This document shows positions 36,409 through 38,134 of a stretch of DNA of 64,000 nucleotides, in pieces. Source of the stretch: an uncultured Cryomorphaceae bacterium (lineage in GTDB: Bacteria; Bacteroidota; Bacteroidia; Flavobacteriales; Schleiferiaceae); contig CAKZJV010000007.1 in the NCBI GenBank assembly GCA_937120475.1, forward strand, positions 1,256,068 to 1,320,067, given 5' to 3'. A program made the translations under genes and the position numbers. Each line of letters opens with the position of its first letter. Within the stretch, counting starts at the first letter, position 1. The notes below the pieces were generated by a model that was given only the letters and a program-made list of their open reading frames with translations, was not told the origin of the DNA and made no database searches.

Positions 36409-37273
36409 GTTTCACAATTTCCCGTACGTTTCGCGCTATCGTTTCCGCTAGGTCATCGGTGGGCAGGTCGCTGGGATCCAACCCAAAGGGATCTTCAATT
36501 TCTTCCGCAATCATCTCGAGGCTGGCAAAGGCATAAAAGGTAACTACCGCCACGGGAATGGACCAGTAACCAAAGGTACCAATCAACCCAAAAGGTAAAG
36601 TGATGATGTAAATGAAGATAAACTTCTTGAGGAATATATTATAGGTATAAGGAATAGGTGTTTTTTTGATCCGTTCGCAGGCCCCGCAGATATCCGTAAA
36701 AGCATTCAGATCATTTAACAAGGCCAGGTAAGCCGCCTCACTGATCTTCTGACTTCGGTAAGTTTCCAGTAACTCCCTTTGTATGTTATTGGCCAGGAAA
36801 TTAGGTACATGTTCTGCGTTAGCTGGCAATTTCAAAAAATCAGGCAGGTGTTTTTCCAGTTCCTGAGCATCCCACGTGCGTAGGTGATCTTTCAGTACGG
36901 TGGCATACAGTGCGGTCATCTCCTTCAGCCGGTATTTTCTCTCCTCTTCCCCATCGGGAATAAAAGCATTGATCTTTAAAGCCATATTGCGGCTCACATT
37001 CACCAGGGCACCCCATTGCTTACGTCCTTCCCACCAACGGTCATAGGCGGTATTGGTGCGGAATACCAGTAATAGTGAAATCACAAAACCCAATAAAGAG
37101 TGCATGGTCATGGAAGTGATGAGGTTATCACTTAAAAAGTGTTTTTCAGCCCATATCACCAGAAAGCAAAACACCGCCAGGGAAAGCATCACCCAGAAAA
37201 GTTTTCGAAATGTTTCTGCTTTATGAAAGGTGAAGATCAGGCCAAACCAGGCTTTAGGATTGTACTTTACCAT
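36401..37273 (-). CDS. Bestrophin-like chloride channel family protein (UPF0187/YneE)
   Basis: 290 residues with four hydrophobic segments, two at about 25-75 and two near 210-245. VFRTNTAYDRWWEGRKQWGA near residue 71 is the diagnostic bestrophin sequence, and EMIAEEIEDPFGLDPSDLPT near 255 matches the conserved DPFG ending. Bacterial homologues form pentameric ion channels in the inner membrane. Single gene, convergent with the T9SS type-B gene. Confidence 0.9.
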   Translation of the reverse strand: MVKYNPKAWFGLIFTFHKAETFRKLFWVMLSLAVFCFLVIWAEKHFLSDNLITSMTMHSLLGFVISLLLVFRTNTAYDRWWEGRKQWGALVNVSRNMALKINAFIPDGEEERKYRLKEMTALYATVLKDHLRTWDAQELEKHLPDFLKLPANAEHVPNFLANNIQRELLETYRSQKISEAAYLALLNDLNAFTDICGACERIKKTPIPYTYNIFLKKFIFIYIITLPFGLIGTFGYWSIPVAVVTFYAFASLEMIAEEIEDPFGLDPSDLPTDDLAETIARNVREIVKPI

Positions 37274-37374
37274 GCTTTATTTTTAAGAATTCCAAAAATA
37301 AACGTTTTCCGAAAGCCCGTTGTGAAAGCCGTGTTTCGGCCCTGCGAAAAAATACCGCGTCACCAGAGTTTTTA

Positions 37375-37406
37375 TTTGGTAAAAATGGAAAAGTATCTAT
37401 CTTTGC
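37375..37406 (+). promoter_or_regulatory. Consensus Bacteroidota promoter ahead of the tRNA-Asp region
   Basis: TTTG at 37375-37378, a 20-base spacer and TATCTTTG at 37399-37406 give an exact TTTG-N20-TAnnTTTG promoter. It lies 37 bases before the broken tRNA-Asp copy and 335 bases before the intact tRNA, so it was probably the promoter of the tRNA gene before the GIY-YIG segment came between. Confidence 0.75.
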
Positions 37407-37410
37407 GCTC

Positions 37411-37437
37411 CCGTTTAGGAAACGGGTACGTTTTTTA
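37411..37437 (+). terminator. Hairpin with T run in the leader before the tRNA-Asp region
   Basis: CCCGTTT and AAACGGG around a 3-base loop, then TACG and six T. It starts about where transcription from the 37375-37406 promoter should begin. It may attenuate the transcript or mark its 5' end; four bases between stem and T run make it a weak terminator. Confidence 0.4.
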
Positions 37438-37443
37438 AATATT

Positions 37444-37497
37444 GGTCCAGTAGTTCAGTTGGCTACCCCGAGTGCTCGGGGATGCCTGTCACGCATG
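37444..37497 (+). pseudogene. Broken 5' half-copy of tRNA-Asp(GTC)
   Basis: The sequence matches the intact tRNA-Asp at 37742 from its first base to the 3' strand of the anticodon stem, including the loop with the GTC anticodon, then turns into the GIY-YIG coding sequence. One base differs in the acceptor stem (A for G at 37449) and one in the D-loop (C for T at 37463). The six bases GAATAC of the D arm are replaced by a 16-base palindrome. T arm and 3' acceptor strand are absent, so it cannot form a functional tRNA. Confidence 0.85.
37466..37481. repeat. 16-base palindrome inside the broken tRNA copy
   Basis: CCCCGAG, TG, CTCGGGG: a perfect 7-base stem with a 2-base centre. It replaces the 3' strand of the D stem of the tRNA-like copy. 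GC-rich palindromes of this kind may act as a cleavage or recombination site or as a protein-binding hairpin; here the role is unknown. Confidence 0.7.
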
Positions 37498-37764
37498 AAA
37501 AAGTATTACGCGTACATTATTCAAAGTGAAGCTGACCAATCGTTCTACATTGGGCAAACAGAGGATGTGTACAAAAGGCTAGATCAGCATAATGCAGGTT
37601 TATCCAAGTACACTTCCAGAAAAATACCCTGGAAGCTGGTATATTTTGAAAAATTTACCAGCAGAAAGGAAGCGATGATTCGCGAAAGGTTCTTAAAGAA
37701 ACAAAGGAATCGTAAGTTTTACGAAACCTTGATACAAAATTGGTCCGGTAGTTCAGTTGGTTAG
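37495..37764 (+). CDS. Small GIY-YIG endonuclease domain protein
   Basis: 89 residues from ATG 37495. YAYIIQSEADQSFYIGQTED has the GIY-YIG pattern (Y-I-I and Y-I-G), followed by the conserved Arg in VYKRLDQHNAG, Tyr in LSKYTSRK, and the catalytic Glu in REAMIRERFLKKQ-like text (RKEAMIRERFLKK). It is a UPF0213-type single-domain member. The ATG lies in the anticodon stem of the broken tRNA-Asp copy, and the last eight residues (NWSGSSVG) and the stop are encoded by the first bases of the intact tRNA-Asp. The frame start 12 codons further upstream would read through the palindrome and is unlikely. Confidence 0.85.
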   Translation: MKKYYAYIIQSEADQSFYIGQTEDVYKRLDQHNAGLSKYTSRKIPWKLVYFEKFTSRKEAMIRERFLKKQRNRKFYETLIQNWSGSSVG

Positions 37765-37815
37765 AATACATGCCTGTCACGCATGGGGTCGCGGGTTCGA
37801 GTCCCGTCCGGACCG
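37742..37815 (+). tRNA. tRNA-Asp (anticodon GTC)
   Basis: 74 bases fold into a complete cloverleaf: acceptor stem GGTCCGG with CCGGACC, anticodon stem CATGC/GCATG around CTGTCAC with GTC at 37776-37778, T arm with GTTCGAGT, discriminator base G. CCA is not encoded. The first 23 bases also encode the end of the GIY-YIG protein. Confidence 0.95.
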
Positions 37816-37816
37816 C

Positions 37817-37848
37817 TAAAAAGCCTCTCAGAAATGAGGGGCTTTTTT
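37817..37848 (+). terminator. Intrinsic terminator after tRNA-Asp
   Basis: AAAAAGCCTCTCA, loop GAAA, TGAGGGGCTTTTTT: a strong hairpin with T run starting two bases after the tRNA. It ends the tRNA transcript. No further feature is seen from here to the T9SS gene at 38135. Confidence 0.9.
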
Positions 37849-38134
37849 GTTGGTTTCTATTAGATAACCTAACCCTTTTCTCCAGCACTTTATTTCGGCA
37901 CTACTTGTACTATCACTTAAGAAAATAGTGTTTCAATTATCATACTTCTCAAAACAAAACCTCCCCGCACCGAACTCAAGATCACCCCTACCGTACTCCA
38001 CCCCACCGCCCCCATTCTCAAAAACCGTCCTTTTTAGCGAGTGATTTCCACTAAACTTACATCTGGTAAGAATTTTCTTGCCAGGTGGATGCCGAAAAAC
38101 CTTGAACCGAGTAGGCTACTTTAATTTCCTAAAA

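Follow-up and report, generated by a model that had tools for sequence, protein, structure and literature searches.

A GIY-YIG nuclease gene framed by a broken and an intact tRNA-Asp gene, probably one copy of a family of minimal tRNA-anchored elements

The window analysed here is a 64,000-nucleotide stretch of the genome of an uncultured Cryomorphaceae bacterium, and the locus under study lies on a 3.04-Mb contig. At this locus the ORF of a GIY-YIG nuclease begins inside a 5′ half-copy of tRNA-Asp and ends inside an intact tRNA-Asp gene (Table 1), as a sequence-only reading of the DNA had described. The half-copy matches tRNA-Asp in order over positions 1-19 (18/19 bases) and 29-44 (16/16 bases; blastn-short, 30.2 and 32.2 bits), and its final three bases are the ATG of the ORF. 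The ORF overlaps the intact tRNA-Asp by 23 nt, so that its last 7 residues (W83 in part, S84-G89) and its stop codon are tRNA sequence. The sequence-only reading was thus right about the stop codon, while its count of eight residues has to be lowered.

Table 1. Features of the tRNA-Asp locus, in window positions
Feature	Position	Strand	Remarks
Promoter, Bacteroidota-type	37375..37405	+	TTTG at 37375-37378 plus TATCTTTG at 37398-37405; native tRNA-Asp promoter, now before the half-copy
5′ half-copy of tRNA-Asp	37444..37497	+	tRNA positions 1-19 and 29-44 recognisable
Net 298-bp insert, compared with the empty site	37444..37741	+	half-copy and ORF up to the tRNA 5′ end; comparison with L084
Perfect hairpin CCCCGAGTGCTCGGGG, 7-bp stem	37466..37481	.	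replaces D-arm bases of the half-copy
GIY-YIG nuclease ORF, single domain, 89 aa	37495..37764	+	ATG at 37495 in the half-copy, TAG ending at 37764 in the intact tRNA
Intact tRNA-Asp(GTC)	37742..37816	+	ARAGORN; Rfam gives 37742-37815, 68.7 bits
Probable intrinsic terminator after the intact tRNA-Asp	37818..37850	+	identified by eye: inverted repeat, then a T run

A promoter had also been placed before the half-copy, and we located it there: the -7-type motif TATCTTTG was found by pattern matching and the TTTG -33 element was read by eye, the two together fitting what we take to be the Bacteroidota promoter consensus. A pattern scan of the 90 nt before the intact tRNA-Asp returned no -7-type motif. 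Translational control by the remnant anticodon stem or the hairpin was considered and dropped (leader fold z -1.79, with 10 of 200 shuffles equally or more stable). Further along the window, at 38082-38117 (+), Rfam reports a match to the DUF805b RNA (RF02914; 36.1 bits, gathering score 35.6); downstream of it lies an ORF of 623 aa that has a secretion sorting domain.

The 89-aa protein matched PF01541 (E 2.2e-19) and, weakly, PF10544. Its catalytic residues are conserved: Y18, H32 and E64 were kept in all 161 rows compared, Y7 and R28 in 160 of 161. AlphaFold2 predicted one compact domain (mean pLDDT 91.4), least certain in the tRNA-encoded tail, and this predicted structure has no DNA-binding domain beside the catalytic domain. 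Profile comparison gave UPF0213 BH0048 (E 1.2e-16) and SLX1 (1.8e-8), with I-TevI far behind (E 0.29). The best PDB matches in Foldseek were BH0048 (E 9.2e-5) and Slx1 (about 1e-3); on superposition 1zg2 fitted loosely (rmsd 7.3) and Slx1 7cq3 better (rmsd 1.4, TMq 0.62). PHROGs returned weak homing endonuclease matches, NCBIfam a sub-threshold match to a group I intron endonuclease, and PADLOC weak partial matches to PDC-S14.

Had the ORF been inserted, the sequence-only reading argued, close relatives should show an empty site with the promoter directly before a single tRNA-Asp. Such a site (L084) was present in the same-genus genome of Owenweeksia sp. isolate EAC74 (G001): it has one tRNA-Asp, no ORF, and the leader seen at 37375..37405 directly before the tRNA. 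A search of this locus for a GIY-YIG match found none. At both sites a divergent bestrophin gene lies upstream (tblastn 6.7e-143), and the two tRNA-Asp genes are identical (75/75 bases). Window positions 36438-37497 align to the empty site through tRNA position 44, and 37736-37819 align to it again at 97.7%. From this two-block alignment, a comparison with one element-free site, the occupied allele has a net 298-bp insert in which the tRNA 5′ half is duplicated.

Among 29 tRNA-Asp loci from other genomes, none had the ORF upstream; two had it downstream (L092, L095), and in L100 the match, located where the tRNA begins, was marginal (E 0.010). A third same-genus genome (G002) carries a GIY-YIG ORF downstream of tRNA-Asp, between two 3′ fragments (L050). 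The tRNA-Arg(TCT) site is the reverse of the tRNA-Asp site: isolate EAC74 has the ORF (L049), and the window's genome has two hairpin-bearing 5′ half-copies and no ORF (L018), with a collinear upstream gene at both loci. Judged by these arrangements, the tRNA-Asp and tRNA-Arg(TCT) sites appear to reflect reciprocal turnover between same-genus genomes.

Further tRNA loci of the window's genome are also marked. A hairpin-split half-copy precedes tRNA-Asn (L023), and a decayed GIY-YIG gene lies between two tRNA-Val genes (L006). As a raw count, 5 of the 30 tRNA loci scanned (40 found) have a fragment of their own tRNA at most 600 bp away and outside other tRNAs, the window locus included.

Three more places in this genome are worth recording. 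At tRNA-Leu(TAA) (L046, C7:1555900-1556900) there are two tandem 5′ half-copies with hairpins and without an ORF. At tRNA-Ala (L037, C7:2496978) units of ~146 bp, each made of CCTGCCTGCCGGCAGGCAGG and a 3′ piece of tRNA-Ala, are repeated without an ORF and resemble non-autonomous derivatives. Palindromic repeats accompany a cluster of unusual tRNA-like sequences with low scores (two at 40 bits) at C7:604700-605900 (L045).

To look for GIY-YIG ORFs between partial and full tRNA copies in other Bacteroidota, as the sequence-only reading had advised, we searched with the window protein (at least 24 of 88 family genomes matched; best 30 loci), with a 16-row profile of tRNA-adjacent relatives (at least 173 of 395 order genomes matched) and, in the GTDB collection, with a 4-row profile (best 80 of 443 loci). 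Many such ORFs were found. After four loci with peptides already present had been dropped (L217, L218, L254, L283), there were 202 distinct loci among the matches listed. A tRNA lay within 500 bp of 166 of these 202 listed loci, a fraction inflated by profile A1, which underlies most of the survey and whose own rows were tRNA-adjacent; ORF and tRNA were on the same strand in 166/166. Removal of two further ORF duplicates left 164 of 200 near a tRNA, and the proportion was 155/177 for ORFs with at least 400 nt on both sides and 21/33 in the search with the window protein alone, all among the matches listed. Random placement in the window's genome would put about 1.5% near a tRNA. Among the best 80 of 443 GTDB loci, 57 of 62 in Bacteroidota and 16 of 18 in other groups (two of the 18 titled only 'bacterium') were near a tRNA. 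The non-Bacteroidota loci in this best 80 of 443 were almost all metagenome-assembled and included several Patescibacteria groups, Chlorobiota, WOR-1, WOR-3, Margulisiibacteriota and Caldithrix. Isolate genomes, for example those of Cyclobacterium plantarum (L231) and Pedobacter (L248), show the same layout.

A fragment of the same tRNA was present beyond the ORF, on the far side, in 131 of the 166 near loci among the matches listed (at least 28 bits), compared with 1 of 498 permuted wrong-tRNA pairs. This makes a chance origin of the half-copy similarity very unlikely, a doubt that the sequence-only reading had raised. The remaining 35 of the 166 listed near loci had no far-side tRNA fragment at 28 bits. 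Elements stood at 28 anticodons among the matches listed, the host being the nearest tRNA, an assignment that may be wrong for some rows in tRNA clusters. Given these 28 anticodons, two sides of the tRNA and presence or absence within one genus, the overall picture is not that of an old arrangement fixed at one place across distant families, which would have spoken against insertion. The tRNA-Arg subgroup is an exception, with the arrangement at the same tRNA in several families; it fits long association as well as repeated homing.

The other 36 of the 202 loci among the matches listed lay away from tRNAs, some of them at contig ends, and L002, L003, L051, L052, L074 and L079 form a group away from tRNAs. 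Within it, L002 and L003 (window's genome, C7:2171146-2174361 and C7:2020539-2023757) and L052 (G001:C13) are small GIY-YIG genes beside long palindromic repeats of the type TGAGCG..GTCGAAG, possibly a REP-associated sister group. Viral contigs contributed 7 loci, one of which (L297, IMGVR_UViG_3300025138_000201) lies directly before tRNA-Arg(ACG). Carriage by phages or plasmids was rejected, as no vehicle was found among 17 phage and 6 plasmid records, each below 60% identity.

The survey revealed features of the layout beyond the sequence-only reading: a hairpin, a mirror-image downstream class, tandem arrays and ORF-less relics. Among the matches listed, the ORF was upstream of the tRNA in 71 loci, as in the window, and downstream in 95; in 6 of the 95 the tRNA falls within the span of an ORF array, giving negative gaps. 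Far-side fragments of at least 28 bits accompanied 61/71 upstream and 70/95 downstream loci among the matches listed. In the upstream class the overlap of ORF and tRNA measured exactly 10 nt for 21 loci and 23 nt for 17 (among the matches listed), and with either overlap the stop codon is supplied by tRNA bases. An exact match of the hairpin position to the ORF stop codon was dropped as a candidate rule; a 10-nt overlap with the hairpin at 20-22 is common. Arrays comprise five ORFs after tRNA-Met (L148), where each unit repeats a broken tRNA 3′ piece and a terminator, and four ORFs after tRNA-Asn (L189), where each unit repeats a broken tRNA 3′ piece; in L151 the whole tRNA-Val is repeated. 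Separately, eight tandem GIY-YIG ORFs with ~365-bp spacing were seen at L157 (G123:C34:5488-11272), with no tRNA found within the 5.8 kb examined.

Among 42 upstream-class loci, 30 had the motif TAnnTTTG within the 90 nt that precede the first half-copy, and 3 had it before the intact tRNA. Its background was 55/1260 windows, and native leaders of the downstream class had it in 47/95. Since the promoter motif thus stands before the half-copy and seldom before the intact tRNA, the intact tRNA of the upstream class is probably produced by read-through that starts at the original promoter.

A perfect stem of at least 7 bp was found in 80 of 118 broken copies; control regions had one in 2 of 354 cases and intact tRNAs in 17 of 118. 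Among the broken copies, no stem of 7 bp was present in 38 of the 118. Six hairpin motif classes, defined post hoc from the stem survey of broken copies, covered 100 of 164 far-side regions and gave 3 hits in 303 control regions. The hairpin of the upstream class is mostly a D-arm insertion (tRNA position before it 20-22, after it 22-23), and the D-arm position of CCCCGAGTGCTCGGGG in the window is the mode of this class. In the downstream class the hairpin mostly replaces the anticodon arm (left mode 27, right mode 45). General REP-like dispersal of hairpins was rejected on the class tested: CCTGCCTGCCGGCAGGCAGG, the commonest exact hairpin, occurred in 16 of 391 genomes, mostly in 1-2 copies each and in 14 copies in one, the genome-wide counts covering CCTGCCTGCCGGCAGGCAGG and the window's hairpin. 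Three of the four exact copies of this commonest hairpin in the window's genome lie 83-251 bp from a tRNA. Hairpins that resemble the one in the window occur elsewhere in the genome too, or act as terminators.

These features were mapped on a quick tree of the nuclease (192 rows, 162 labelled, about 85 columns). The hairpin class changed 8 times, compared with 42-53 changes when labels were shuffled and 15-19 when they were shuffled within side and amino acid. Thus, the class of hairpin tracks the phylogeny of the nuclease, also among loci at a single tRNA type. The amino acid of the tRNA changed 38 times (89-99 shuffled), the anticodon 54 times (118-130) and the side 16 times (45-62). Nuclease lineages are therefore faithful to a tRNA, yet switch repeatedly. 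The window nuclease has no close relative on this tree, its nearest being 1.44 substitutions per site away. The ORFs are under purifying selection (dN/dS 0.052-0.222, median 0.127; 31 pairs from 40 loci), and selection of this strength fits host benefit as well as selfish spread.

The sequence-only reading had proposed a minimal tRNA-targeted selfish element that keeps a working tRNA. Recurrence at many tRNA genes supports this proposal and widens it: on balance we favor the view that the window locus belongs, as one copy, to a family of selfish nuclease elements that are minimal and anchored on tRNA genes. Three parts would make up each element: a solitary Slx1/UPF0213-like GIY-YIG gene, a hairpin specific to the subfamily, and pieces of the host tRNA gene. 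The nuclease would break an element-free tRNA gene in one arm, the D-arm in the upstream class and the anticodon arm in the downstream class. Homology between tRNA genes would then allow repair from a tRNA locus that bears the element. This would place the ORF between two tRNA copies, one complete and working and the other broken, the broken one holding the hairpin in the targeted arm. In the upstream class, the window included, the ORF would take over the tRNA promoter and borrow its stop codon from the tRNA, which would come to depend on read-through and 5′ processing. Recombination between the tRNA repeats may generate tandem arrays and ORF-less relics. Note that the intact tRNA of the occupied allele is unchanged in sequence and changed in its upstream context. 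Because it is identical to the empty-site tRNA, a target wholly inside the tRNA would make the nuclease cut its own locus, and the model consequently calls for a target that reaches across the leader or that is structural.

An alternative that shares much of this evidence is hairpin-directed transposition, in which the nuclease would recognize its cognate hairpin, as a cruciform or single-stranded, along with the natural hairpins of tRNA genes, as REP-associated transposases recognize REPs; the hairpin would then be a mobile end and not a scar. The tracking of nuclease phylogeny by hairpin class, even within one tRNA type, points in this direction, as do the proximity of the catalytic domain to UPF0213 and Slx1, a structure-specific nuclease, far ahead of I-TevI, the replacement of the anticodon arm in the downstream class and the repeated ORF-less units of hairpin plus tRNA piece at tRNA-Ala (L037). 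However, the best-defined hairpin is hardly dispersed, window-like hairpins are found at other places in the genome or as terminators too, and about a third of the broken copies (38/118) lack a 7-bp stem, which leaves this explanation rather doubtful. Less probable still is that a structure-specific nuclease is maintained by the host beside its tRNA genes for a benefit, for example the amplification of tRNA genes or protection from phages or islands that exploit these genes. Presence, absence and relics within one genus argue against such maintenance, PADLOC offers weak partial PDC-S14 matches, and the arrays L148 and L189 multiply mostly the ORF and broken tRNA pieces instead of whole tRNAs, although L151 does repeat the whole tRNA-Val. 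The low median dN/dS, the long fidelity to tRNA types and the existence of tandem arrays would all agree with it, and phage SegB is reported to amplify tRNA genes as a way of resisting a defence system (PMC13096335).

Two other accounts are disfavoured. If recombination had simply duplicated a tRNA gene in tandem and had trapped an unrelated ORF between the copies, the nuclease playing no part, the ORF-less partial tRNA copies at L046 and L037 would be explained; the same protein family would, however, have to be caught repeatedly (166 of 202 loci among the matches listed), on one strand only and with family-specific hairpins, and we give this account very little credence. Chance similarity or misassembly might be suspected where related loci are metagenome-assembled, as many are, or at contig ends, as some are. 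Considering the 3.04-Mb contig, the single permuted pair among 498 and the same layout in isolate genomes (L231, L248), we regard an artefact as negligible in probability.

A bolder form of the selfish-element model can be offered tentatively, with the odds against it. The loci might constitute a distinct, widespread class of autonomous mobile elements, in which one GIY-YIG domain acts on DNA hairpins and travels with a cognate hairpin; the hairpin arms of tRNA genes would be the landing sites, from Bacteroidota to Patescibacteria, and the element would always leave one working tRNA and take a promoter or stop codon from it. If so, these would be among the smallest mobile elements (a net insert of 298 bp here), living on an essential gene class without killing it, and they would account for many partial tRNA copies near bacterial tRNA genes. 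They would provide a bacterial counterpart to phage SegB, a role for solitary UPF0213-like GIY-YIG domains and a testable system for the joint evolution of nuclease and palindrome. The promoters of some essential tRNA genes would now lie upstream of a nuclease ORF.

Several known systems share parts of this design. Integrative elements at tRNA genes lie between a piece of the tRNA and a reconstituted tRNA. The window locus likewise has a tRNA piece on one side and a complete tRNA on the other; in contrast to these elements, its insert measures 298 bp and has the nuclease as its sole ORF, with no integrase gene in it. REP elements with RAYTs combine a Y1 transposase with a lineage-specific palindrome. 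The elements described here resemble them in pairing a nuclease-type protein with such a palindrome, and differ in that the protein is GIY-YIG and not a Y1 transposase, in the tie to tRNA genes and in the rare dispersal of the hairpin tested. No Y1 transposase is present in the 298-bp insert, whose one ORF matches PF01541 and weakly PF10544.

Homing endonucleases of the SegB type typically have a separate DNA-binding domain, which the window protein, unlike a typical free-standing homing endonuclease, lacks. In profile and fold it is closest to UPF0213 BH0048 and the catalytic domain of Slx1, the matched Slx1 chains having 183-324 aa compared with its 89. To our knowledge, the UPF0213 and Slx1 families have no reported link to tRNA genes or hairpins. 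Our search of the open-access PMC literature found no description of GIY-YIG genes framed by tRNA copies in bacterial chromosomes. SegB of phage T4 is described as a GIY-YIG homing endonuclease of the tRNA region (PMC2988022). According to a second paper, whose survey covered phages and archaeal viruses, SegB is associated with tRNAs of many isotypes in phages and drives tandem tRNA-segB amplification (PMC13096335). The elements share with the free-standing SegB of phages T4 and T6 a GIY-YIG gene beside tRNA genes, many isotypes and tandem arrays. Unlike SegB, they reside in bacterial chromosomes, consist of one domain of ~80-90 aa, and are framed by an intact and a broken copy of one tRNA, the latter with a hairpin. 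The best reading of these comparisons is that the elements are probably SegB-like in behaviour, SegB being the closest known system, and Slx1/UPF0213-like in fold.
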